From: a virus
IMG/VR virus record: IMGVR_UViG_3300044948_001003
Location: 1-20,128 of that record
Direction: 5' to 3' (one strand)
Length of the DNA stretch: 20,128 nucleotides
Shown: in pieces, positions 2,319 to 20,128 of the stretch
How positions within the stretch are numbered: the stretch's first letter is position 1
How the letters are laid out: every line of letters begins with the position of its first letter
Position numbers and translations under genes: made by a program
The notes under the pieces: model-generated
What the model was told of the DNA's origin: nothing
The model's database searches: none
The model's input: the letters and a program-made list of their open reading frames with translations, nothing else

Positions 2319-3326
2319 ATGCCCATGAACAATCCCTTCGACAACCCCGCGTTCTCCATGTCGGCGCTGTCCACCGCCATCAACATCCTGCCCAACAACT
2401 ATGGGCTGATGGACCAGATGAATTTGTTTCCGGCCAAGCCAGTGCGTTTCCGCCAGATCGCCATCGAGGAGAAGAACGGCGTCCTGAGCCTGTTGCCGAC
2501 GCTGCCGGTGGGCTCGCCTGGTACGGTGGGCGTGCGCGGCAAACGCAAGCTGCGTTCCTTCGCCATCCCCCATATCCCGCACGAGGACGTAGTGCTGCCG
2601 GAAGAAGTACAGGGCATCCGCGCCTTCGGCATGGAATCCGAGTTGCAGTCCATCTCCAACGTCATGGTCGAGCATCTGCAAACCATGCGGAACAAGCACG
2701 CCATCACCCTGGAACATCTGCGCATGGGCGCCTTGAAGGGCGTAATCCTGGATTCGGATGGTTCGATGCTCTACGACCTCTATGACGAATTCCAGATCAC
2801 GCCGAAGGTGGTGGACTTCAAGTTCAGCAACACCGACCTGGACGTGAAGAAGGTTTGTCTGGGGATCAAGCGCTATGTCTCCAAGAATCTGCAGGGCGAG
2901 TTCATGACCGGCATCCACTGCCTGGTCTCGTCCAGCTTCTTCGACGCGTTGACCGGACATGACAATGTGAAGGAGGCCTACAAGGACTGGCAGACCGGAC
3001 TGGCGCTGCGTTCTGACTTGCGCACGGGATTCACCTTCGCCGGCATGACCTTCGAGGAATACTTCGGCGAGGCATCGGATGGCACCACCACGCGCAGCTT
3101 CATCGGTGAGGACGAGGGCCACGCCTTCCCCCTGGGTACGGTGGACACCTTCGCCACCTACTTCGCGCCGGCGGATTTCAACGAGACGGTGAACACGCTC
3201 GGCCAGCCGCTCTATGCCAAGCAGGAGCCGCGCAAGTTCGATCGCGGCACCGATCTGCACACGCAGAGCAATCCGCTGCCCATGTGCCACCGCCCCGGGC
3301 TGCTAGTGAAGCTCACGATGTCTTGA
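2319..3326 (+). CDS. Major capsid protein, lambda gpE family
   Basis: A 335-residue protein, almost the length of lambda gpE (341). It is the shell subunit, HK97-like fold, forming the icosahedral head. Recognisable parts are the N-terminal NIYGLM-like segment NILPNNYGLMDQMNLFP, the IEEKNGVLSLLPT stretch, HIPHEDVVLPEEVQGIR at about residues 86-102, and the C-terminal YAKQEPRKFDRGTDLHTQSNPLPMCHRPGLLVKL, which is typical of PF03864 proteins. The start at 2319 has a second ATG two codons later; CAAAGGA upstream supports either. Its last 14 bases overlap the end of an opposite-strand gene, which is unusual for a capsid gene. Lambda FI has no counterpart in the space that follows. Confidence 0.94.
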   Translation: MPMNNPFDNPAFSMSALSTAINILPNNYGLMDQMNLFPAKPVRFRQIAIEEKNGVLSLLPTLPVGSPGTVGVRGKRKLRSFAIPHIPHEDVVLPEEVQGIRAFGMESELQSISNVMVEHLQTMRNKHAITLEHLRMGALKGVILDSDGSMLYDLYDEFQITPKVVDFKFSNTDLDVKKVCLGIKRYVSKNLQGEFMTGIHCLVSSSFFDALTGHDNVKEAYKDWQTGLALRSDLRTGFTFAGMTFEEYFGEASDGTTTRSFIGEDEGHAFPLGTVDTFATYFAPADFNETVNTLGQPLYAKQEPRKFDRGTDLHTQSNPLPMCHRPGLLVKLTMS

Positions 3327-3600
3327 GCGCTTTCTGACGCTCCTTGGTGTAGCGGTACCAGGGCTGCGGCGGGTCGCCAGCCATGAAGCGAGTGGCGGCG
3401 ATGAAGGTGTCGAGCAGGCACGGGTCGTAGTTGACCCCGTTCTGCCCGCACAACTGCTGAAACAGGACGTAGGGGTCTTGCCCCACAAGGTCCGTCGGTT
3501 GGTGGATGCCGACCTCGCGCAAATACCCGGCAACCGCCGGGCCGATGTTGGGGATGGCCTCCAGTACCAACGCGTCTGCCGCTGTCTTCGCTTTCTTCAT
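3313..3600 (-). CDS. Cdd1-like helix-hairpin-helix protein (probable moron)
   Basis: A 95-residue protein on the strand opposite to every other gene of the head and tail operon. The N-terminal half contains a helix-hairpin-helix motif (IPNIGPAVAGYLREVGI, residues ~16-32) followed by TDLVGQDPYVLFQQLC, and the C-terminal end has PWYRYTKER. This pattern matches the Cdd1 'pathogenicity locus' or mitomycin-resistance-related family as I recall it; the biochemical role of that family is not known to me, and DNA binding is inferred from the HhH motif. GGAGG lies nine bases before the ATG on the minus strand. It ends inside the last codons of the capsid gene and its start is 36 bases from the divergent FII-like gene. 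A separate promoter would have to lie within the FII-like gene; only a weak TATCAT (3637-3642, complement) is visible. Confidence 0.82.
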   Translation of the reverse strand: MKKAKTAADALVLEAIPNIGPAVAGYLREVGIHQPTDLVGQDPYVLFQQLCGQNGVNYDPCLLDTFIAATRFMAGDPPQPWYRYTKERQKALKTS

Positions 3601-5936: not shown

Positions 5937-6595
5937 AGTTGTCGCTGACCACCTCCGGCCTGCTCGACCCGAAGCGGCTCGATAGCTGGGTGCCGGAAAA
6001 GCGTCGAGCGATCCGCAAAGCCGTCGAGTCCGCCATGAAAACCACCGGCAAGGAAATGGCCGACGCCGCGCGCAGCCGAATGCAATCAGCGTTCAAGGTG
6101 AAGAGGGCAGGATTTTTGAAGTCGATGCGTGCGAAGGTCTATGCCGGCAGCCCGGAGCGGTTCCCGGCGCTCCTCATCGGCTCGAAGATTGCCTGGCTGG
6201 GTCTGCACATGAAGGGCGGCACCATCACCGGCAAGCGCGGCAAGCTGCTGATCCCGCTGTTGCCCGAGCACCAGCGAATCGGCCGCCGCGCCTTCAAGCG
6301 CGTCATCGACGGGCTGATGCGCGCCGGGAACGCCTTCTTCATCGAGCGCAACGGCAAGCTGATCTTGATGGCCGAGAACATCAAGGACAACACGGCCGAG
6401 TTACGCCGCTTCAAGCGCGCCGAACGCGATCGCACCGGTGCAAAAACCATCAAGCGAGGCCAGGAAATCCCGATTGCTGTGCTGCTGCCGAGCGTGACCC
6501 TGCGCGGTCGCTTCGATCTGCCCGGCATCGTGCGCGCGCAACTACCAAAGTTGGCAACGAACATCCTGCAACAACTGAACACTCATGGCCTCTGA
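5933..6595 (+). CDS. DUF6441-like phage tail-region protein
   Basis: A 220-residue basic protein between the chaperone pair and the tape measure. The N-terminus LSLTTSGLLD followed by a helical, charged region (AIRKAVESAMKTTGKEMADAARSRMQSAF, residues ~26-54) and repeated Lys/Arg clusters match the DUF6441-type proteins I recall from proteobacterial siphophages. Its function is unknown. The position suggests a tail completion or tape-measure-associated role. It starts at the ATGA overlap with the chaperone stop and its own end overlaps the tape measure start by 11 bases. No signal peptide or membrane segment is seen. Confidence 0.6.
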   Translation: MKLSLTTSGLLDPKRLDSWVPEKRRAIRKAVESAMKTTGKEMADAARSRMQSAFKVKRAGFLKSMRAKVYAGSPERFPALLIGSKIAWLGLHMKGGTITGKRGKLLIPLLPEHQRIGRRAFKRVIDGLMRAGNAFFIERNGKLILMAENIKDNTAELRRFKRAERDRTGAKTIKRGQEIPIAVLLPSVTLRGRFDLPGIVRAQLPKLATNILQQLNTHGL

Positions 6596-9545
6596 ACGCG
6601 CCCAGATCCTGATTGCTGCCATCGACCAGACCAAGCAGGCGTTCGCCTCGGTCAAGAGCGGCCTGGAGGGGATCACCACCGCAGCCAAATCAGTCAACGG
6701 CTTGCTGGCCGGGCTGGGCGCGGCGCTGTCGGTCGCGGGGTTGATGGCCGCTGGCAAGGCCGCGATCGATACCGCCGACGATCTCTCCAAACTGTCCCAG
6801 AAAACTGGCATCTCGGTCGAGTCGCTGTCACTCCTTAAGCCCATCGCCGAGCAATCCGGCATTTCGCTGGAAGGACTGGCCAAGGGCATGCAGAAGTTGG
6901 CGACCGCGATGGTCGAGGCGGCGGGTGGTTCCAAGGAGCAGCTTGAGGTCTTTAGTCGCCTCGGCGTTTCGGTCAAAGGTGCCGCCGGGCAGATTCGTCC
7001 GACCGAAGCGGTGCTGCTCGATCTGGCTGACGCCTTCTCCGTCATGCCCGATGGGGCCGAGAAATCCGCCTTGGCTGTGAAGCTCTTCGGCAAGGCAGGC
7101 GTCGAGCTGATTCCGTTTCTGAACCAGGGCCGTGCCGGCATCGAGGAACTGAAGCAGAAGTTCAAGGAACTGGGCCTGGAGATCAGCGGCGACACGGCTC
7201 GCGCTGCCGAGAAATTCAACGACACCCTCGATACGGTCAAGCAGGCGCTTTCCGGCATCGCCCTACGCGTGGCCGAAGCGGCACTCCCCGCCTTACAGCG
7301 CTTGGCCGACGCCCTGGTGGGTCTGGCCAGCCATGGCGACGAGATTCTGGCCGTGATGCGCGCCCTGGGCGAAGTTCTGGTGGCGGTGCTGGCGGTCAAG
7401 GGTGTCGCGGCGGCGGCCAAGCTGCTGGAATCGGTCAACTTGTTGAAGGCCGCATTCACCCGTTTCCTGCCCATCCTGGCGGCGGTGGCCGTCTGGGAGA
7501 TGGGCAAAGGACTCATCAAGACGGTGCAGGACATTCGCGAGACCAATCGCGCCATCGACGAACTGGGTCGGCAACGGGCGCAGATCGATCAACTCGACGC
7601 CGCGATGCAGGAACTAGCGGCGACCGGCACGGTGAGCATCAAAACCCAGATGGCATTGGCTGCCCTGGCGGCTGAGCGCTTGAAAGCGGCGCTGCCTGGC
7701 ACGGCCGACGCACTGCGCGCCATCCAGGGCGCGGCGACACAAGCTGGTGAAGCCATCCGCCAGGCGCTGGACGCGGAAACCAAGAAAGCCGCTGAATCGG
7801 TCAAGCAGCTTGCTGCCAGTTACAAGCAGGTCGCCGCCGATATCAAGGCAAACTGGGATGCGCGCGTGGCCGAGGTCGAAAGCAACTACAAGCGCCAGGA
7901 AGCAGCCGCGCAAACGGCGGCGCGTTCCGAGTCAGCCGCTATCCAGAGTTCAACACAGAACCTGCTCGCTGCCGAGCGCGATAAACTCGCGGCGGTCGAG
8001 GCCGGTGCGCACCAGATGGAAGCCGCCTGGAAAACCACCTATGGTCAGGCCGTCGCCCTAGCACGGGCCGCTGGCCAGGATGTGGCATCTATCGAACGCC
8101 AGGCGGTAGAGGCGCGCATCAGCCTCTATGGCCAACTGGAATCGGCCTACCGCGCCACCGTCGACCGGCTGATCGCTGAGGAGCAGCGGCATCTCAATGC
8201 CGCCAAGGCCGCCGAGGAGGCACGGCTCAACCTCAAGCTCTCGGTCGAGGACCGCATCCGCGAACTTGGTCGCAAGGGGATGGATGATTACGCGGCCTAC
8301 CAGGACCGGCTGCGCCAGATCGACGAGAAGCAGGCCCAAGCCAAGGCCGCGCTCGACGCCGGCAACTATGAGCAGGCGCGCAAACTTGCCGAGGAAGCCA
8401 TCGCCCTGGCCGAGCGTTCGGCCTCAGCGGTGACCCAACAAGTCGAGCAGAACGGCAAGACAGTCACCCAGACGATGGTGTCCGAGGGCCAGGCCGCCGC
8501 CACCGCCATCGGGCAGATCAAGGAATCCGCCGGCATCGCCGACTCGGCGTTGAAGGGGTTGGGCGATGCCCACAAACAAGCCGCATCAGCGGCAGGTGCC
8601 GGCGCGGATGAGGCCAAACGCGCGCTGGCCTCCGTCTCAGACGAACTCGGCAAACTGCGCCAGCAACTGCTGTTCCAGGACAAGCTGAAGCTCGAAGTCG
8701 ATATTGAAGGCGCACGGGCCGGTATCGAGAAGCTGCAGGCGCTGATGGCGGCGCAGCAGTTGATCACCAAGATTCAGGCCGACACGAAAGAAGCCGAGTC
8801 CGCTCTGGAAAAACTCAAAACCGACACGGGCAATCTCACCCTGGTCGCCAAGATCGAAGCCGACACCACGAAGGTGATGGCCGACATCGACACGTTGAAG
8901 GGCACGCTTTCGGCAGCCAAGGTGGAGATCCCGGCGCTGGTGTCCTTCGACCAGCCCCGGGCGCAACTGGCTTCGTTCGCTCAGGACGCCCGCACGGTGT
9001 TATCCAATCCGACGTCGGCGACGCACACGCCGCAGCCTGATCTCGGCCAGTACCGGGCGGCGGTGTCTGAACTCATGCGTCCCACTTCGAGCCGCCACAC
9101 TGTCTATGTGACGAGGGTGGCAACCAATGCCCAGGGCGGGCTGATTCAGCGGTTCGCCGAGGGTGGCCAGGCCATCGCCGAGGGATTCAAGCGGATGTCC
9201 GGCCGCATCTTCGGGCCGGGCACGGAAACCTCGGACTCGGTGCCAGCGCTGCTGTCGCATGGCGAGTTCGTGGTGCGCGCGGCCTCGGTGCGCAAGTTCG
9301 GCGAGGGCTTCTTCGCAGCGCTCAACGCCGGCTTTGTGCCTCAAATTCCTCGTTTTGCGGCGGGGGGTGCCGTGGCCAATGCTGTGGCGCAGGCGACGAT
9401 GGGCGGCGGTTCGTCCTCGACTCCCGCCCGCGATGTGGTCGACCTTCGCTTTCATGTCGGCGGCAAGCCGCACACCGTGCAATCCAGCCGCGACACCGCC
9501 ATGCAACTGGCCAGCGCGCTGCGTGAACTGTCGCGGGGATCGTGA
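6585..9545 (+). CDS. Tail tape measure protein
   Basis: A 986-residue protein that sets tail length and is ejected with the DNA. The N-terminal 30 residues are amphipathic, followed by hydrophobic stretches at about residues 38-60 and 230-290, as expected for a protein that enters the cell envelope. Residues ~310-850 are mostly long Ala/Glu/Lys/Gln-rich coiled coil with little proline or cysteine. The C-terminal part has the family's Gly-rich segment: AEGGQAIAEGF, then GRIFGPGTETSDSVPALLSHGEFVVRAASVRKFG and PRFAAGGAV. By the rule of about 0.15 nm per residue it would specify a tail near 150 nm (inference). The start overlaps the previous gene by 11 bases and the ribosome binding site is weak, so translation may be coupled. 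Confidence 0.95.
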   Translation: MASERAQILIAAIDQTKQAFASVKSGLEGITTAAKSVNGLLAGLGAALSVAGLMAAGKAAIDTADDLSKLSQKTGISVESLSLLKPIAEQSGISLEGLAKGMQKLATAMVEAAGGSKEQLEVFSRLGVSVKGAAGQIRPTEAVLLDLADAFSVMPDGAEKSALAVKLFGKAGVELIPFLNQGRAGIEELKQKFKELGLEISGDTARAAEKFNDTLDTVKQALSGIALRVAEAALPALQRLADALVGLASHGDEILAVMRALGEVLVAVLAVKGVAAAAKLLESVNLLKAAFTRFLPILAAVAVWEMGKGLIKTVQDIRETNRAIDELGRQRAQIDQLDAAMQELAATGTVSIKTQMALAALAAERLKAALPGTADALRAIQGAATQAGEAIRQALDAETKKAAESVKQLAASYKQVAADIKANWDARVAEVESNYKRQEAAAQTAARSESAAIQSSTQNLLAAERDKLAAVEAGAHQMEAAWKTTYGQAVALARAAGQDVASIERQAVEARISLYGQLESAYRATVDRLIAEEQRHLNAAKAAEEARLNLKLSVEDRIRELGRKGMDDYAAYQDRLRQIDEKQAQAKAALDAGNYEQARKLAEEAIALAERSASAVTQQVEQNGKTVTQTMVSEGQAAATAIGQIKESAGIADSALKGLGDAHKQAASAAGAGADEAKRALASVSDELGKLRQQLLFQDKLKLEVDIEGARAGIEKLQALMAAQQLITKIQADTKEAESALEKLKTDTGNLTLVAKIEADTTKVMADIDTLKGTLSAAKVEIPALVSFDQPRAQLASFAQDARTVLSNPTSATHTPQPDLGQYRAAVSELMRPTSSRHTVYVTRVATNAQGGLIQRFAEGGQAIAEGFKRMSGRIFGPGTETSDSVPALLSHGEFVVRAASVRKFGEGFFAALNAGFVPQIPRFAAGGAVANAVAQATMGGGSSSTPARDVVDLRFHVGGKPHTVQSSRDTAMQLASALRELSRGS

Positions 9546-11753: not shown

Positions 11754-12761
11754 ATGCCCATCCTCGACAACGAAATCCTCTGGCGGCCCGCCGCCTTGCT
11801 GTCCGACGCCACACCCGCGCAGAACGGTGGCCGCATGGCCTTCCCCCAACTGGTCTCCGGCGTGAAGAACAATCTCTTCCCGGACGTCTCGCAATCCGAA
11901 CGCGGCGCGGGTTCGGTGAAGTGGCGCAAGGCCTTCATCCACATCAACAGCGCCCAGGATGCGGCGTTGCTGAATGTGCGGCTGTTCATCGATGCCCCCA
12001 CGCCTGCAGGCGACTTCGTGGTGTTCCAACTCGGTACGGCGACCGACACCCAGGACCAGATCGCGGGCCGCACCTATGGCATCGGCACCCTGTTCGCAAC
12101 AGTGGCTGGCGGCGCGAGTCAGATCCAGGTGGTGTGCGAGCACAACGCCGAATACGCCACCCTGCAGCCATTCCGGGTCGGCGACCTCGTCCGGGTGTCC
12201 GACCGCCCGAGTACCGGCGGCACGGGCAATGAAGAATGGATGACCCTGTCCGGCGTCAACTACGAACCGGACTTCGCTACCCTGGATTTCACATCGGCGC
12301 TGGTGAATGGCTACGCCACGGCGAATACCCTGGTGAGCACGGTTTATCAGCAGGCCAGTGTTGCTGGCGCCTGGTCGAATCTGGCGCTCACCAGTGCCGC
12401 CGGCAGTTTCGATGCGGCTACGGTCGGCAACCTCATCGCGCACAACAAAGGCGCCATCGAGCAGACCTGGAGCCTGACCTTCACCGGGCAGGGCTTCAAC
12501 GTTTCGGGTAACACGATAGGCACATTGCCCGCGATGGGTTCCACCAGCGCCGACTTCGCGCCGGTGAACCCGGCCACCGGCACGCCGTATTTCACGATCA
12601 AGGCGGCGGGATGGAGCGGCACCTTCCAGGCCAACGAGAGCCTGCATTTCGACACGCATCCAGCGGCGATTGCCATCTGGTATCGCCGCCAGGTTCCCGC
12701 CGGCACCTTCAGCCTCGCCAACGACTTCGCGTCACTGGCGATTCACGGCGAGAGTGCGTGA
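11754..12761 (+). CDS. Unrecognised 335-residue tail protein
   Basis: A structural-looking protein of unknown function. It begins with PILDNEILWRPAALLSD and contains NNLFPDVSQSERGAGSVKWRKAFIHINS (about residues 39-66), followed by Thr/Ala/Gly-rich beta segments and few charged residues, as in phage tail or fibre proteins. The last third (FTGQGFNVSGNTIGTLP, ATGTPYFTIKAAGWSGTF) looks like a beta-sandwich. GGAG is well placed before the ATG. Its end overlaps the next gene by one base (TGATG). Homologues are usually annotated as hypothetical phage proteins; no enzyme motif is visible. Confidence 0.75.
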   Translation: MPILDNEILWRPAALLSDATPAQNGGRMAFPQLVSGVKNNLFPDVSQSERGAGSVKWRKAFIHINSAQDAALLNVRLFIDAPTPAGDFVVFQLGTATDTQDQIAGRTYGIGTLFATVAGGASQIQVVCEHNAEYATLQPFRVGDLVRVSDRPSTGGTGNEEWMTLSGVNYEPDFATLDFTSALVNGYATANTLVSTVYQQASVAGAWSNLALTSAAGSFDAATVGNLIAHNKGAIEQTWSLTFTGQGFNVSGNTIGTLPAMGSTSADFAPVNPATGTPYFTIKAAGWSGTFQANESLHFDTHPAAIAIWYRRQVPAGTFSLANDFASLAIHGESA

Positions 12762-13588
12762 TGGCCACGGTGGGTTTCACCAAGGAATACTCCGCTGGCG
12801 ACTTCGACTCGGTGGCACTGACCGCCATGTTTGCCACGCTCAAGGGATTTTTTGAAGCGGCGGGGTTCGTCGTTATCCTCGATCAGGCCGACGCTTTTGA
12901 GGTGCTCCCCGCCGGCCACGCGGCCGGCACGATCAGTGATGACATCCCGCACTGGCGCATCGAGCAAGGCGGCGGCAGCTACCCCAACCTTCGTGCTCGC
13001 GCCATCTGGGGCATTAATGACGACGATATCGATAGTCGCTCTTCACACACCGTGTATTTGCTCAATGCCGATACTGATCCGCAGTGGGCCTCCTACCGGG
13101 CCATAACCTTCGCCGCTGACGGCAGCGCAGGCTGGTGGTGGCTGATCTCAAAACAATGGGACGCCGCGCACCCTGAATGGGGAAACTGGTTCGAGGCGAG
13201 CGCAGTGGCCTCGAAGACGCGTCGCTACGCTGCCGACTTTCATGTCGGACTGGTCTGTCGCTACGGCATTTATGACGGTGGAGATTGGCGCACGCCCTAC
13301 GCCATCGCTGCAACAGGCACGATCAATACCAAAGTAGTCGGCACACTCTGGTCACCGCTTGCGGGTATGCAGCGGCATGCTGCATCGCCCTTGCCGCGGC
13401 TGGTCGCCCCACTTTTTTGCGAAATCAACAACTCGCCGGGCGCACACCTGCAAGGCGAGATCGAACACATCATGAAGCTGACCAGCGGTTATGCCTGGGG
13501 AGAAGCGCCGCTGCCGGGATGGTGGGCATTCACCAATGACTACGCGCCGCTTGCTTTGCCCGCACCGACCAGCTTCACGGCACTCTAA
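12761..13588 (+). CDS. Unrecognised 275-residue tail protein
   Basis: A protein of unknown function, aromatic-rich (many Trp and Tyr), beginning MATVGFTKEYSAGDFDSVALTAMFATLKGFFEAAG-like (helix after a short strand). The middle contains YLLNADTDPQWASYR and GWWWLISKQWDAAHPEWGNWFE, unusual for their tryptophan density. Such surfaces are common in receptor- or glycan-binding tail proteins, but this is only a suggestion. The ATG at 12761 shares a base with the previous stop, and its own TAA overlaps the next ATG (TAATG). The longer frame upstream lies inside the previous gene and is not used. Confidence 0.72.
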   Translation: MATVGFTKEYSAGDFDSVALTAMFATLKGFFEAAGFVVILDQADAFEVLPAGHAAGTISDDIPHWRIEQGGGSYPNLRARAIWGINDDDIDSRSSHTVYLLNADTDPQWASYRAITFAADGSAGWWWLISKQWDAAHPEWGNWFEASAVASKTRRYAADFHVGLVCRYGIYDGGDWRTPYAIAATGTINTKVVGTLWSPLAGMQRHAASPLPRLVAPLFCEINNSPGAHLQGEIEHIMKLTSGYAWGEAPLPGWWAFTNDYAPLALPAPTSFTAL

Positions 13589-15408
13589 TGTTCGACACCG
13601 GCCTGACGCTGCACCTGAGTATTCATGCTGACGCGGCTCCGGCGAAGGTGCGTACTCGGTTCTCTGCCGCCTGGGGCACGACCGAGGTTTTTACATCCAA
13701 TGTAACAACGTGGGATATCACCCAGATCAAGGCGTGGCGGAATGTGTCGGGGTGGTCGCTGCGCTTTGCCGGCACGCACCGGACCCGCTATGGCTTGCGC
13801 CTGGAAAAAGGGAACCGCGCACCTTATGGCGACCTGCGCCAGCATCTGCGGCACCTGGTCATACCCTATGGCGATACCCGCCAACACCGGTTACGAGTGA
13901 CGCTACTTTACGGAGATGTGCAGTGGCTACGGACCCGAATTGATCTGCCCTACGGCGAGGCAAGACGTCATCATGCCCGAGTCACGCTGCCCTACGGCGA
14001 AGTGAGCCGACTTCAGGCCCAAGTCATCCTGCCCTACGGCGAGGTGAGCCGACTTCAGGCCCAAGTCACGCTGCCCTATGGCGAGGTGAGTCGGCTTCAG
14101 GCACGAGTCACGCTGCCATACGGCGAGGTAAGTCTGCTTCAGGCCCAAGTCACTCTGCCATACGGCGAAGTGACCCGGCTCCGGCAGCGGCACATCGTTC
14201 TGTATTCCGAGCTCGGCGTTTGCCAAAAAAGCATGCGCCTCACTTACTGGCTGACCCAGGAAGTCGCTACGCACCACGTCCTTGGTTACGCCGTGACGAA
14301 GGTAAATCCGCTCAAAAAGCAGCTCACCGCATCCTGGTCGTTGCTTGCTGATCAGCATCTACAAGCGGTGATGAACACGCCAGAACTGGTCTGGCAGGAC
14401 AAGACGATCCGCATTCTCCAGGCCACCCTGAGTTGCGATGAGGGCAGTCCGGTATGGATCGCGACCGTCGAGATCGCGCAGGTTGCGGACTTCGCTGCCA
14501 TCGCCATCGGCGACCCGATCACCCTGGTCCTTGGCCAGGAAACCTTCGCGCTGGTGGTGGACGGCAAGACTCTATCGCGAGAATCCATGACCAGCCAGCG
14601 TTGCGAACTGACCGCCATCTCGCCGCTGGCGCTGCTGGACGCCCCCTTCGCGGCGACTACCCGGTATTACCAGCCAGGAGCAGTGCCGGCACGCACGGCG
14701 GTAGAAGAACTGATCGGCAACGTGGACTGGCAATTGCCGGACTGGACCATCCCCGCCGGTCGCTTGCTGATGGAAGGCGTGACACCGCTCGCGGCGGCCC
14801 GCAGCGTGGTCGCCGCCATCGGCGGGATCATCGAGAGCAATCCGGATGGCACAGTGGTTTGCCGCCGCCGGCATCCGGTGAGCATCCCCGACTATGGACA
14901 AGCTCCAGTCGCCCATAACCTGTTCGACGCCGATGTCCTGGCCAGTCGCGCCCAGATTGCGCCGGCGCGTGGCTTCAACCGGGTCACTCTGGCCAACGAG
15001 GACGTGGCGAGCGGGCGTTCCGCCGATCGCATCGAGCATGTCGCCGATGCCAACGACGCCAATCAGGGCACGGTGCGGGCCTACCTGGCGATAGCGCGAC
15101 CGGTACTGCTCACCCACACCGGCAATCCGGCAACGGTCATTGCTGCGCTGGGCGAGGTAGCGCGCAGCGAATCCGAGGTTGTCGAGTTCATCGAAGGTCG
15201 GGCGAGCACGCGCTACCCGGTCACCGCCATCAATAGTGCTACCTGGCAGCACACCGATCTCGGGGCCGTGACGGTGGACGGCTTGGCACTGGTTGCGGCG
15301 GTACCCGGCTACAGCCTGCTCGCTCTGACCTACACCTCCATTTCCCTCGACTGGCGCGTCACCTTGGCCGCAGACGAGGAAGTCCAATTCATCTTGGTTG
15401 ACGCTTGA
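13588..15408 (+). CDS. Tail hub-like protein with 14-residue tyrosine repeats
   Basis: A 606-residue protein. Residues 1-78 are a beta-rich N-terminal part. Residues 79-246 are twelve 14-residue units of the form PYGEVSRLQAQVTL, the tyrosines falling exactly every 14 residues from 80 to 234. Residues ~235-606 resemble hub-like proteins of proteobacterial siphophages: IGDPITLVLGQETFALVVDG, then SQRCELTAISPLALLDAPF, a DWTIPAGRLLMEGVTPLAAARSVVAAIGGIIESNPDGTV block near 405-445, and PARGFNRVTLANED. The C-terminal resemblance is to sequences I recall, not a named domain I can prove. It likely sits at the tail tip, and the repeat may form an extended beta structure. The next gene has AAGGAG overlapping this stop. 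Confidence 0.72.
   Translation: MFDTGLTLHLSIHADAAPAKVRTRFSAAWGTTEVFTSNVTTWDITQIKAWRNVSGWSLRFAGTHRTRYGLRLEKGNRAPYGDLRQHLRHLVIPYGDTRQHRLRVTLLYGDVQWLRTRIDLPYGEARRHHARVTLPYGEVSRLQAQVILPYGEVSRLQAQVTLPYGEVSRLQARVTLPYGEVSLLQAQVTLPYGEVTRLRQRHIVLYSELGVCQKSMRLTYWLTQEVATHHVLGYAVTKVNPLKKQLTASWSLLADQHLQAVMNTPELVWQDKTIRILQATLSCDEGSPVWIATVEIAQVADFAAIAIGDPITLVLGQETFALVVDGKTLSRESMTSQRCELTAISPLALLDAPFAATTRYYQPGAVPARTAVEELIGNVDWQLPDWTIPAGRLLMEGVTPLAAARSVVAAIGGIIESNPDGTVVCRRRHPVSIPDYGQAPVAHNLFDADVLASRAQIAPARGFNRVTLANEDVASGRSADRIEHVADANDANQGTVRAYLAIARPVLLTHTGNPATVIAALGEVARSESEVVEFIEGRASTRYPVTAINSATWQHTDLGAVTVDGLALVAAVPGYSLLALTYTSISLDWRVTLAADEEVQFILVDA
13822..14325 (+). repeat. Twelve tandem 42-base coding units (14 residues each)
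   Basis: Units start at 13822 and recur every 42 bases without a change of phase. Units at 13990, 14032, 14074 and 14116 are nearly identical; the first two differ at 3 of 42 positions. The outer units are diverged, keeping mainly the Tyr and the alternating hydrophobic pattern. There are no spacers, so this is a coding tandem repeat and not a CRISPR array. Confidence 0.93.
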
Positions 15409-15419
15409 AGGAGTGATTC

Positions 15420-15932
15420 ATGGCCAACGCCACCATCCGAGTGCAATTCGGCAGTCCTGATAGTCAGGGCGGCGCGTACGAGGGGCATCTTTCTGCAGAA
15501 ATTGACAGTCGTTCCAATGGCCTCAACGGTGGCAAGTCGTCGTTCAGCCCGGGCGAGACGGTCTACATCCTCGTCTACAAATCGGACAACGTCAGCATCA
15601 CCGAGACGATCTGCTCGGCAGGTTCACTCTCCGCCCAGGGCACTGCGACCGTGACGGTCACCGACGAACTGATGTTCGAGGAAGCCGATAACGCCAGTCT
15701 CAGTGTGCCAGCCCGGGCGGGAATCGACACATCGGTCTGGTATGGCCGCAGCCTGGGCACTCTCACGCTCCAGTCCGACAAGGTAACGGTGAAATCCGCC
15801 GTCAAGGGCGTGGGCGTGGCCAAGGTCACCTATGAGGCCCAGGCCCAGGTTTACGCCCTGGCTTCTCCCGCCGCACTCAACGGGGAAACCGACTTCTCCA
15901 TCCTCGCCCTGATCAAGGGGAGCGCGACATGA
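15420..15932 (+). CDS. Unrecognised 170-residue beta-rich tail protein
   Basis: A small protein with an all-beta look: ATIRVQFGSPDSQGGAYEGHL, then TVYILVYKSDNVSITET, GTATVTVTDELMF and VAKVTYEAQAQVYAL, all alternating strands separated by Gly/Ser/Asn turns. This resembles Ig-like or jelly-roll domains of tail-tip proteins, without a match I can name. AAGGAG at 15408-15413, six bases before the ATG, is one of the strongest ribosome binding sites in the window and suggests a high copy number or independent translation. The stop overlaps the next ATG (ATGA). Confidence 0.75.
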   Translation: MANATIRVQFGSPDSQGGAYEGHLSAEIDSRSNGLNGGKSSFSPGETVYILVYKSDNVSITETICSAGSLSAQGTATVTVTDELMFEEADNASLSVPARAGIDTSVWYGRSLGTLTLQSDKVTVKSAVKGVGVAKVTYEAQAQVYALASPAALNGETDFSILALIKGSAT

Positions 15933-16225
15933 TCGTCGAGGTCTATCGCGAGGACGGTCTGCGCGAGGGCACGCCCATCGTCGAGCCGCTGCTGTCGGAC
16001 GAGGCCTTGCTGAAACGGGGCGTGGCCGAGATGGATGCCCATGCGCATGCGTTCAACCAGGTGGAGTTGGAAGTGGTGTTCCAGCCCGGCTTCCGACTCG
16101 GACAGATCGTCGAGGCCACTGACCCGTCCACCGCCAGCGCCTATCGGGCCAAGGTTACCGGCATCCAGATCACGGTGACTGAGGCAGCCATCGAGATGCG
16201 CCTCAACCTGGAACAGTCGCGATGA
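15929..16225 (+). CDS. Small hub-accessory-like tail protein
   Basis: A 98-residue protein. It contains a helix (SDEALLKRGVAEMDAHAHAFNQ) and then strands: VELEVVFQPGFRLGQIVEATDP and YRAKVTGIQITVTEAAIEMRLNLE. The order 'helix with Arg-Gly, then beta barrel with R-L-G-Q-I-V, then Y-x-x-x-V-T-G' resembles the last domain of large hub proteins, here as a separate gene, so it could be a split-off hub domain (inference). It overlaps both neighbours by ATGA. Confidence 0.65.
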   Translation: MIVEVYREDGLREGTPIVEPLLSDEALLKRGVAEMDAHAHAFNQVELEVVFQPGFRLGQIVEATDPSTASAYRAKVTGIQITVTEAAIEMRLNLEQSR

Positions 16226-16440
16226 CCTTCCCGCTGCAGGAACTCACCCGCCTCATCGCCCCTGACGCCACCCTGGTCGGTGCGGTCGTCGGATTCAACG
16301 GCTCCCTGGTGCGCGTGGCCACCGAACGTGGTGCGGTGACGGCGCGCTCCCTCGATGTTCTGGCCATCGGCGACCGGGTGCTGGTCCGCCACGGCATGGC
16401 CACCCGAGCGCCAGTGGCCCGACACATTTATCCCGTCTGA
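16222..16440 (+). CDS. Small beta-barrel tail protein
   Basis: A 72-residue protein with an N-terminal helix (TFPLQELTRLIA) followed by a compact five-strand pattern (TLVGAVVGFNGSLVRVATERGAVTARSL then IGDRVLVRHGMATR), typical of an OB-like or SH3-like barrel. The function is unknown; the position at the end of the tail-tip genes and the overlap with the previous stop (ATGA) suggest a hub or spike accessory. It is the last gene before the hairpin at 16465-16485. Confidence 0.62.
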   Translation: MTFPLQELTRLIAPDATLVGAVVGFNGSLVRVATERGAVTARSLDVLAIGDRVLVRHGMATRAPVARHIYPV

Positions 16441-16802: not shown

Positions 16803-17272
16803 TCGAGACCTTGCTGGGTGGATTGTTGGGCGGGGCGTTTCGTCTGGCGCCTGAATTTCTGAAATGGCTCGATCGGAAAGGTGAGCGAGGCCACGAACTG
16901 GCGATGCAGGACAAGGCGCTGGAGTTCGAGAAGATTCGGGGCGCGCAGCGTATGTCCGAGATCGGCGCGAGTGCCGAAGCGGCCTGGAACACCGGAGCCA
17001 TCGAGGCGTTGCGCGATGCCGTGCGCACTCAGGGTGAGAAAACCGGGGTGGCTTGGGCGGATGCGATCTCGTCGAGCGTGCGGCCGGTGATTACCTACTG
17101 GTTCATGGCGCTGTACTGCGCGGCCAAGACGGCGGCCTTCGTGGCGGCTCTCAACGGCGGGGCATTGTGGAGCGTGGCGGTCGTTCATGCCTGGACGGAT
17201 GCCGACCAGGCGTTATGGGCCGGGGTGCTGAACTTCTGGTTCCTCGGCCGCGTATTTGATCGGATGCGGTGA
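16799..17272 (+). CDS. Putative holin, GTA 3TM type
   Basis: A 157-residue protein. Hydrophobic segments are a short N-terminal one (TLLGGLLGGAFRL), a strong one at about residues 100-122 (VRPVITYWFMALYCAAKTAAFVAAL), and a third near 135-153 (WAGVLNFWFLGRVF). A charged Glu/Lys-rich region separates the first two. The VRP...YW followed by W...FW...R pattern is what I recall of the GTA_holin_3TM family. Such holins permeabilise the inner membrane to release the lysozyme. The lysozyme start shares a base with its stop (TGATG), which supports a coupled lysis cassette. The number of true membrane segments is uncertain. Confidence 0.68.
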   Translation: MIETLLGGLLGGAFRLAPEFLKWLDRKGERGHELAMQDKALEFEKIRGAQRMSEIGASAEAAWNTGAIEALRDAVRTQGEKTGVAWADAISSSVRPVITYWFMALYCAAKTAAFVAALNGGALWSVAVVHAWTDADQALWAGVLNFWFLGRVFDRMR

Positions 17273-17730
17273 TGCAGGTACCCCAGGCGGCCATCGATCT
17301 GGCCAAGCGGTTCGAGGGCTTCCATCGCGTGCCGAAGCACGATCCGTATCGAGCCTATCCATACATCTGCCCGGCCGGGTACTGGACGATCGGGTTTGGG
17401 CATCTGTGCCAACCCGTCCACTCGCCCATTACCGAGGAGGAGGGAGAATCGTATCTGGCACAGGATTTGATGACAGCGCTCAAGGCAACGCTGCGCTACT
17501 GCCCGGTGCTGGCGACGGAGTCAGAGGAACGTCTCGCGGCCATTGTGGATTTCACGTTCAATCTGGGTGCGGGGCGGCTACAGTCGTCAACCTTGCGGCG
17601 GCGAATCAATCAACGCGACTGGTCATCGGCGGGGACAGAGCTTGGGCGATGGGTGCGTGGCGGCGGGCGGGTGCTGCCAGGTCTTGTTATGCGTCGTCAG
17701 GCTGAAGTCGCCATGCTTGTCGGGTTATAA
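17272..17730 (+). CDS. Endolysin: phage lysozyme, GH24 family
   Basis: A 152-residue muramidase that cleaves N-acetylmuramic acid-(beta-1,4)-N-acetylglucosamine bonds of peptidoglycan. The catalytic pattern is visible: Glu15 in RFEGFH, Cys33 in YICPAG and Thr39 in YWTIGFGH. In T4 lysozyme the three are Glu, Asp, Thr; Cys at the middle position is common in GH24 endolysins and remains active, so this should be a working enzyme. The C-terminal half, with VDFTFNLGAGRLQSSTLRRRIN and LPGLVMRRQAE, also matches the family. There is no signal or SAR segment, so export should depend on the upstream holin candidate. The ATG at 17272 shares a base with the previous stop; a GTG one codon earlier is the alternative. 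Confidence 0.9.
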   Translation: MQVPQAAIDLAKRFEGFHRVPKHDPYRAYPYICPAGYWTIGFGHLCQPVHSPITEEEGESYLAQDLMTALKATLRYCPVLATESEERLAAIVDFTFNLGAGRLQSSTLRRRINQRDWSSAGTELGRWVRGGGRVLPGLVMRRQAEVAMLVGL

Positions 17731-17920: not shown

Positions 17921-20128
17921 CTAAATGACGTTACGCCCATGGCCGCAAGACGGGCACACAAATGCTATTGTGCTGTTGTCCGCTTTATATGGCACTGCGA
18001 GCACATCGGCTCCAAGAAATCGGTCTAACCATCCCGCTGAGGAGTCATCTGTTGCCCAAGAACTCACCAAGGGCATCAGGATAGGAATCCAATCTTTGCA
18101 GTTCGGGCATATCTCTGTCCCCCACTTCGTCGAGCAGTCCGGACACACACAGGAAAACCGATGCCCATTACTACCTGTGAAATCTCGTCTCGTATCGGCA
18201 ATACTTCCGCAAGTTGGGCAAGCGAGCAAGGACTTCACGAGTCCGATCGCGGCTTCCACCTTACTCGCGAAATTGGCGAGGGCATCAATCTGTGATCGAA
18301 GGTCAGTTATCGATGCGTTCAACACCTTCTTTCGAGCGTTAAGCGGTCCGCTAGCACCGCCATCTCGTACCGCCAGTCGTAACTGCTGGGATACGTCATC
18401 ATGCTCGATCTCCAGGGCTTGAAGTTGCTTCCGTTGATTGGCAAGCCGTTCTGCAAGATGAATATCCTCATAGATTTCAGGCGCACGCGTAACGACTATG
18501 CCGGAGCCAGTTGCTTCAAGCCACGCTACATCGTTCGAGATACTGGGTATTGGGGGGCTGGCTATAAAAGGCGGATAAGCAAGGAACATTGGCGCCGTGA
18601 TCGCCCATCGAAGTTCTCGTGTGACGCGCTCGACGCTGGATAAGTCCCATGGGGAAACTGGCAAGAATCCCGCACGTGGCTGTCCCACCTCAGCCATCTC
18701 GTGCGAAAGTGAATTTAGCCGATGTGCGTTGACGGGGAGCATGCGTTGAAAGGTACTTTCAGAAGAAGGGCTCGGATAGAGAACCAACGCAATCTCGTCT
18801 GCGGTTACGGACGCGTCGGCATCGCGAATTAAATTTGCCAGATCATCGTCACCGAACATCGCAACAGACCCTGGGATAGGAATGATCTTCAATAGCTTCG
18901 CCCCTTCAACCGCAAGGCGCAGCGTGCCGTCGGTCGATGACCAGGAGAGTCGAATGCGTATGCCCCGCCCTTGAAGGTCGATCTCATGTCTATCGAGAGC
19001 GTGCGTCAGGTCTGCAGGTTCGATACCTAGTTGGTGCAGCCCCCTGATGACAAGCAGGAGAGAAAAACCTCCGAAGCAGCGGCATAACTCTTGCATCTCT
19101 TCGAAATACTTGTCTGGTCTTGGTGACTGCTTCAAACCAAGACGCGCCCAAGCTAACCAGACTTCCGCTACTCTGCGGTAATGAACATCGTTCGCGAGAA
19201 TATTCGTCATCGTGAGTGTGGTGCTCACGGATGCACGCTGCGGAACCTCACGATACAGCACGGAATCCATCAGACCCGAGATTGAGAATTTCAGGAACTT
19301 CAGTTGCTTGAGAGTACGCTCAGCTTTGCGGCGAGCCTCTCCAGCATCAAGCGAATCCCCCAAAAGCTGGAATAGCCGCCGTTGCCGCCAGTGGGATCCT
19401 TGGCCAGCGGCTTCACTGAGTTTCTCGGCATCTTTGAAAAAGCCCAGCAACTTGGAGACCTCTCTCACCCGCTCAGAGAGGTACTGTTCCAGATGATCTA
19501 CGAGACGGACAGCAATCCGGTTCTCGTAGATATCGAACTGTTCCTCTCGAACCTGCGAGAGGATGCGTTTAGGAATAACGGCACGCAGAGTTGGGCGATC
19601 CCAATCCTCAGTATGCGCTGCGAGATAGCTGGATGCCTGCGTTGCTAGCCGCCGCGCCCTCGCCACCGTGGTTCGCTCGACTTCCACCCTCAGGTGGGTC
19701 CGAGGTCGCAGACAGACTTCGACGAGATGGCCGAGTCGGTCCGCGAGCAACTTCTCGAGTTCCTGCAATTCTGCCCGTTCAGACATTCCCGGAACGAGAG
19801 GGGACACATCAAGTGCATCCAGCCAAGTTCCACCGGTAGAGAGCAGTTCACTAACGCTGTTTCCGACATCCAGAATGCTCGTCACATCCAGTCTGTCCAG
19901 AACCTGAGCCCGCGAAATCGTTCCTTCAACTCTATCTCGCCCCGGTTCCATCAACTGCCAGTGTCCACGGAGATCAGGTACGCAATAACTAGGCTGCGCT
20001 ATCGCAATGGAGTTCAAGAACGTGGCGTCATCGCCCAGCGGCTCGACCATAAATCTGCCGAGGACCATATCTTCCGCTGGCACATCACAGGAATGCCCAC
20101 GTAATCTATCGATGAACCGATACGTCAT
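17921..20128 (-). CDS. DUF2357-like protein with coiled coil and C-terminal zinc ribbons (possible defence component; 5' end at window edge)
   Basis: A 735-residue reading frame whose first ATG falls on the last bases of the window, so it may start further upstream. Residues ~120-330 resemble DUF2357, a domain associated with McrBC-like type IV restriction: RPRTHLRVEVERTTV, a basic helical region, then EEQFDIYENRIAVRLVDHLEQYL with the family's ENR, and VHYRRVAEVWLAW. Residues ~555-630 are a coiled coil. The C-terminus has four CxxC pairs (Cys637/640, 662/665, 674/677, 725/728), enough for two zinc sites. No PD-(D/E)XK or other nuclease motif is visible, so any catalytic partner is probably a neighbour outside the window. 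The gene is convergent with the lysozyme and has lower GC than the phage genes. The family call and defence role are inference. Confidence 0.68.
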   Translation of the reverse strand: MTYRFIDRLRGHSCDVPAEDMVLGRFMVEPLGDDATFLNSIAIAQPSYCVPDLRGHWQLMEPGRDRVEGTISRAQVLDRLDVTSILDVGNSVSELLSTGGTWLDALDVSPLVPGMSERAELQELEKLLADRLGHLVEVCLRPRTHLRVEVERTTVARARRLATQASSYLAAHTEDWDRPTLRAVIPKRILSQVREEQFDIYENRIAVRLVDHLEQYLSERVREVSKLLGFFKDAEKLSEAAGQGSHWRQRRLFQLLGDSLDAGEARRKAERTLKQLKFLKFSISGLMDSVLYREVPQRASVSTTLTMTNILANDVHYRRVAEVWLAWARLGLKQSPRPDKYFEEMQELCRCFGGFSLLLVIRGLHQLGIEPADLTHALDRHEIDLQGRGIRIRLSWSSTDGTLRLAVEGAKLLKIIPIPGSVAMFGDDDLANLIRDADASVTADEIALVLYPSPSSESTFQRMLPVNAHRLNSLSHEMAEVGQPRAGFLPVSPWDLSSVERVTRELRWAITAPMFLAYPPFIASPPIPSISNDVAWLEATGSGIVVTRAPEIYEDIHLAERLANQRKQLQALEIEHDDVSQQLRLAVRDGGASGPLNARKKVLNASITDLRSQIDALANFASKVEAAIGLVKSLLACPTCGSIADTRRDFTGSNGHRFSCVCPDCSTKWGTEICPNCKDWIPILMPLVSSWATDDSSAGWLDRFLGADVLAVPYKADNSTIAFVCPSCGHGRNVI

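Follow-up and report, generated by a model that had tools for sequence, protein, structure and literature searches.

Tail-tip proteins determine which bacteria a phage enters, and the question raised by the present locus is what a strictly periodic array of short, tyrosine-bearing units contributes to a protein encoded among tail-tip genes. The window, by which we mean the whole stretch of 20,128 nucleotides analysed (IMG/VR record IMGVR_UViG_3300044948_001003), encodes a 606-residue protein that had been regarded, from its letters, as tail hub-like and as carrying such an array near its N-terminus. The array proved to be real and broader than first described. The features to which the following sections refer are listed below.

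6585..9545, + strand: tape measure protein, which opens the tail-tip gene block (PHROG tape-measure families)
12761..13585, + strand: gene immediately upstream of the hub gene, ~275 aa, a second island of divergence and a possible partner in host contact
13588..15408, + strand: tail hub protein of 606 aa with N-terminal 14-residue repeat array (ORF; PHROG 24698, E 1.2e-39; PHROG 6079, E 5e-26)
13588..13818, + strand: N-terminal residues 1-77 with the degenerate aromatic units W29, W42, W56 and Y68 (residue positions)
13819..14322, + strand: array of 12 units, 14 residues (42 bases) per unit, with Tyr exactly in register
13987..14154, + strand: units 5-8, a tandem expansion specific to the lineage, the closest relative having 2 units fewer
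14374..15405, + strand: baseplate-hub domain, residues ~263-606, Mu gp44 / T4 gp27 / VgrG type (AlphaFold, Foldseek)
15420..15932, + strand: conserved downstream tail gene, 170 aa (PHROG 24905), 74-92% identical in most of the clade
15929..16440, + strand: two small conserved tail genes, 98 and 72 aa (PHROGs 22220 and 5076), order conserved

Tyrosine register and unit sequence

The twelve tyrosines (Tyr 80, 94, 108, 122, 136, 150, 164, 178, 192, 206, 220 and 234) stand in exact 14-residue register without a single insertion or deletion, just as the preliminary description had stated; the 606 codons of the ORF occupy 13588-15405 (+). When the whole protein was shuffled 2000 times and all steps from 3 to 39 were considered, the longest run of tyrosines at the same step amounted to 2-4, and once to 5. 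A 42-base period of 5.5 copies was detected at 13945-14177 by TRF. PYG is present in 8 of the 12 units and LYG in one, in agreement with the wording that the units are usually of these two types; the final three units read LYS, TYW and GYA. The central units had been called nearly identical, which is too strong, as those at 13987-14154 are only 81-93% identical at the DNA level, with a longest exact repeat of 25 bases, and differ from one another mostly by synonymous changes. Nor does the array begin at residue 80, since looser aromatics (W29, W42, W56 and Y68, with spacings of 13, 14, 12 and 12 around them) extend it N-terminally.

A Pfam search with the window protein at E values up to 1 gave no match, and the arrays of relatives gave none above any family's cut-off. 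On the opposite strand, a 143-aa open frame at 13927-14358 (-) is likewise 14-residue periodic; it is most likely a by-product, being open because the 42-base unit contains no stop in that frame.

The hub domain and its gene neighbourhood

The hub gene is placed between the tape measure gene (6585-9545) and a lysozyme gene (17269-17730), amid tail-tip genes. Its matches to PHROG 24698 span residues 304-605, part of which also match PHROG 6079, annotated as "tail protein". The full-length AlphaFold model, computed from an alignment of 25 sequences, is confident from approximately residue 263 (pLDDT mostly 80-94, residues 443-477 excepted), and the match of its C-terminal half to PDB structures of the Mu gp44, gp27 and VgrG hubs (Foldseek E 2e-7) bears out the assignment as tail hub-like. 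The structures retrieved from the PDB by Foldseek comprise the Neisseria tail protein 3d37, Mu gp44, the MuSo2 tail protein and VgrGs (best E 2.4e-7, prob 1.0), with 1wru, 9ki1 and 3cdd as further matches. Residues ~263-606 thus have a baseplate-hub fold of the Mu gp44 / T4 gp27 / VgrG type. The window protein shares with this family the fold of that region (E 2e-7 to 1e-5, prob 1) and the location of its gene in tail-tip genes past the tape measure gene, whereas the best-matching phage hubs comprise only ~310-370 residues and the examined matches exclude the N-terminal 14-residue array. Among cultured phages, the SIO-2-like Vibrio phages encode relatives of the hub domain, at 27-28% identity. 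The PHROG 6079 / PHROG 24698 proteins of Vibrio phage SIO-2 and its relatives share the hub domain and the downstream gene order with the window, but they are ~430 residues long, with a short N-terminal part in which no expanded array is recognisable.

In the relatives G007, G008 and G014, the stretch directly 3' of the hub, corresponding to the site of the 15420-15932 gene, weakly matches the hub profile over positions ~258-345 (E 4e-9 to 2e-5), and may possibly represent a paralogous domain.

Unit number among close relatives

That the length of the array can change by unit number had been proposed at the outset, and counting in relatives supports it. In a comparison of 17 clade proteins, the distance between fixed landmarks was an exact multiple of 14 residues in all except one (L196), and the unit counts were 12, 10, 7 (in three proteins), 5 (in ten) and 3, the window having 12. 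The closest relative, L183, possesses a hub ~91-92% identical to that of the window, which has two extra central units. The first four and the last four units of the two arrays are one-to-one orthologues with 88-100% DNA identity, while window units 5-8, which are 81-93% identical mutually, show 73-85% identity to units 4-6 of L183 and are mostly closer to one another than to the L183 units. The orthologous outer units and the differing unit numbers of relatives uphold the suggestion of a recently expanded centre, and the pattern of the central units is what one expects to be left behind when 42-base units undergo unequal exchange or slippage.

A divergence island around the array

The array and the gene preceding it diverge far faster than the neighbouring genes. 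Between L184 and the window, the hub is 91% identical, the three genes past the hub 90-95% and a 335-aa gene 89%, in contrast with 42-67% in the array region and 38% in the gene directly upstream. The same holds for L187-L199, in which the array and the upstream gene lie well below the hub in identity, and residues 1-77 are 43-67% identical in most clade members with hubs 71-91% identical. The product of the upstream gene (12761-13585) gave no match in a Pfam search. Fast-diverging islands within tail operons usually mark host-contact parts, a pattern well established in phage genomics, and by this analogy the island found here may represent such parts, although relaxed constraint could also produce a fast-diverging array.

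The array as a separable module in distant relatives

The array is not bound to the hub polypeptide. In six distant records (L200-L203, L205 and L209), the hub begins directly at its own methionine, and in those read (L200-L203 and L209) the array is encoded by a gene overlapping the hub start. The units of the separate array gene in L202 read 'ARFDLRYGEFAQLT', and the gene preceding that array has tail-fibre PHROG matches. The array genes of L203 and L209 also harbor a LamG domain at the front (E 3.4e-20 in L203), a gene combining LamG and repeats precedes the hub in L212, and a weak LamG match, repeats and hub are fused into a single protein in L153. At L203:4545-5975, the PYGD units are separated from the LamG domain by a second, different repeat (approximately 'GQTPAVALG').

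Records found via the hub alone (L204, L207 and L213) also carry 14-residue aromatic repeats ahead of the hub. Among the hub-selected viral proteins, 14 was the best aromatic lag in all except L210 and L211, which are distant hub relatives without this period. Hub homologues were found in 43 of the 398 Pseudomonadota genomes sampled; a PW/PY array gene lies upstream of the hub in L225 and L236, and many prophage hubs in this sample were without an evident array. Similar arrays also occur in other proteins (L159, L176 and L163), those of L159 and L163 having a weak link or none to the window array.

A DNA pattern of four PY[x] codons at 42-base spacing was also sought in bacterial genomes; since it mostly retrieved short repeats out of frame and Pro/Gln/Gly-rich proteins of low complexity, we do not claim that cellular proteins commonly contain the unit. 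Pairs of P-[F/Y]-E-W, considered as a potentially related motif, were set aside, the one viral match being an unrelated DNA repeat.

Arrays in cultured Aeromonas phages

The repeat family seems to extend to tail-tip proteins of phages that are otherwise unrelated: matching arrays are also present in cultured Aeromonas phages of the Casjensviridae (vB_C4, AVP3, phiA034, BUCT551, BUCT552 and PhAER-6; PHROG 1101), in which the C-terminus of a gpJ-like tip protein consists of 14-25 P-Y-x-L units at 14-residue spacing. These arrays share with that of the window the 14-residue unit and a number varying between isolates; they differ in being C-terminal and in residing on another tip protein, which is annotated only as tail or hypothetical protein. 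Outside the array, vB_C4 and phiA034 show 97.7% identity, but vB_C4 has a long array and phiA034 a short one, the difference being 126 residues (9 units). For BUCT552 and PhAER-6, at 93.1% identity, the arrays differ in length by 70 residues (5 units). A third pair, AVP3 and BUCT552, shares 98.7% identity beyond the array but has different unit sequences within it, as if the array had been exchanged. The IMG/VR record L018 (IMGVR_UViG_2974693939_000001) seems to be a copy of Aeromonas phage BUCT551, with an identical array.

The likeness between arrays was gauged against 200 controls, each made by reordering the 14 columns of one array in the same way throughout its units, so that period and composition were kept. 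No control reached the scores of the pairs window-L202, L202-L213, L207-L213, L207-vB_C4 and L213-vB_C4, whereas window-vB_C4 was equalled by 4 of the 200 and window-L153 by 2. The direct link between the window and Aeromonas arrays is therefore suggestive, and the chain from the window through L202 and L213 to vB_C4 is the stronger connection.

Predicted fold of the array

A solenoid or stacked hairpins with an aromatic ladder had been envisaged for the array, which the structure predictions do not establish. An AlphaFold model of the array, for which 51 six-unit fragments were aligned in 14-residue phase with few internal gaps, displays one strand of 6-10 residues per unit, with turns mostly at LPYG (pLDDT 60, pTM 0.43), and the full-length model agrees with it, likewise at low confidence in the array. 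These low-confidence models suggest a sheet built from one strand per unit rather than a multi-strand coil in each unit. The unit may resemble that of the triple beta-spiral of adenovirus- or reovirus-type fibres; that fold is a trimer of ~15-residue units, each comprising a strand, a Pro/Gly turn and a further strand.

A coiled coil of two heptads per unit (14 = 2 x 7) was rejected because all array models consist of strands, with no helix, and Pro-Tyr-Gly occurs in most units. Foldseek with the array model against viral structures gave nothing below E 0.001, and sequence searches of the PDB, run with the array profile as well as with two individual arrays, yielded no matches. A weak match to the P22 tail needle (4lin, E 0.017) is most simply read as a chance match of repetitive sequences.

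Function of the array and competing explanations

On balance, we incline to the view that the protein acts as the tail-tip hub of a siphophage and that its N-terminal 250 residues make up a module of 14-residue beta units, variable in length, which serves in host contact. Each unit would probably supply one strand of 8-10 residues and an aromatic turn x-P-Y-G, and the module would most likely project as a stalk or contact surface that takes part in host recognition. Its length changes as whole units of 42 bases are added or removed, and the module can be exchanged, split off into a separate gene or joined to a lectin-like domain. The earlier notion of a rigid spacer or receptor-facing surface fits the LamG-linked arrays, the divergence island and the C-terminal position of the Aeromonas arrays. 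Against this reading stand the low confidence of the array model, the hub relatives L210 and L211 without the 14-residue period and the many prophage hubs with no evident array; in addition, many relatives with short arrays presumably function, so that array length is not critical in them.

An unlikely alternative is that the array acts as an adaptor inside the tail tip, docking the product of 12761-13585, a possible fibre, to the hub, and varies because the docked partner varies. It accords with the fast divergence that the upstream gene shares with the array in L184 and L187-L199, with the tail-fibre matches of the gene ahead of the L202 array, and with the array's ability to exist as a separate chain. 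Against this, the two do not constantly co-vary, since the neighbouring gene of L185 is 82% identical to that of the window and its array only 42-65%, and in the Aeromonas phages the array lies at the very C-terminal end of the tip protein, a position in which docking of a partner is less obvious.

We regard it as rather improbable that the array is just a flexible linker under weak constraint, in which units drift, their number shifts by replication slippage and neither length nor surface is selected. The low AlphaFold confidence and the widely differing copy numbers of close relatives agree with such a linker; but the exact tyrosine spacing, the whole-unit length differences in 16 of the 17 clade members, the mostly synonymous differences among central units and the recurrence of the 14-residue period across many lineages argue against it. 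That the array arose through faulty assembly or annotation of a metagenomic contig, as its origin in an IMG/VR record might prompt one to ask, has a negligible chance of being correct, because the units are 81-93% identical and share at most 25 exact bases, so that units 5-8 should have come through short-read assembly neither collapsed nor expanded, and the same kind of array is found in independent contigs and in isolated, cultured Aeromonas phages.

Precedents and significance

Tandem-repeat modules in phage adhesins are already known, and it is the type of unit that appears to be undescribed; a literature search of open-access full text found no description of 14-residue repeats in phage tails. 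In crAss-like phages, BACON-domain tandem repeats grew by sequential duplication or transfer and were suggested to have a host-binding role (PMC6949934). They resemble the array as tandem modules in tail-associated proteins, although their unit is a full carbohydrate-binding domain rather than a 14-residue motif. Tandem duplications in the tail fibre of Enterococcus phage EfV12-phi1 were selected during co-evolution with a resistant host (PMC6365445); they are likewise in frame and in a tail protein, but involve a 1.8 kb segment of the long tail fibre instead of a short periodic unit.

As a wider proposal, which we advance tentatively, the x-P-Y-[G/N/E/D] 14-residue unit may constitute an undescribed and widespread tail-tip repeat, carried at either end of different hub proteins or as a separate chain and exchanged or resized to tune host contact. 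The unit is absent from Pfam, appears on several tip proteins and varies in number and sequence between cultured phages that are otherwise 98% identical. If the proposal were correct, nature would provide ready material with which to determine whether adsorption depends on the length of the tip or on the sequence of its repeats, and annotators could spot host-contact regions presently labelled hypothetical.

Two further genes of the window lie apart from the array. Just past the lysozyme gene and on the opposite strand, a 735-aa ORF at 17924-20128 (-) runs off the window end; it matched DUF2357 weakly (E 1.7e-4, below the cut-off) and had no PADLOC match. Within the head-tail gene cluster, the stretch at 3313-3600 (-) encodes a 95-aa Cdd1 ("pathogenicity locus", helix-hairpin-helix) protein (E 2.6e-26).
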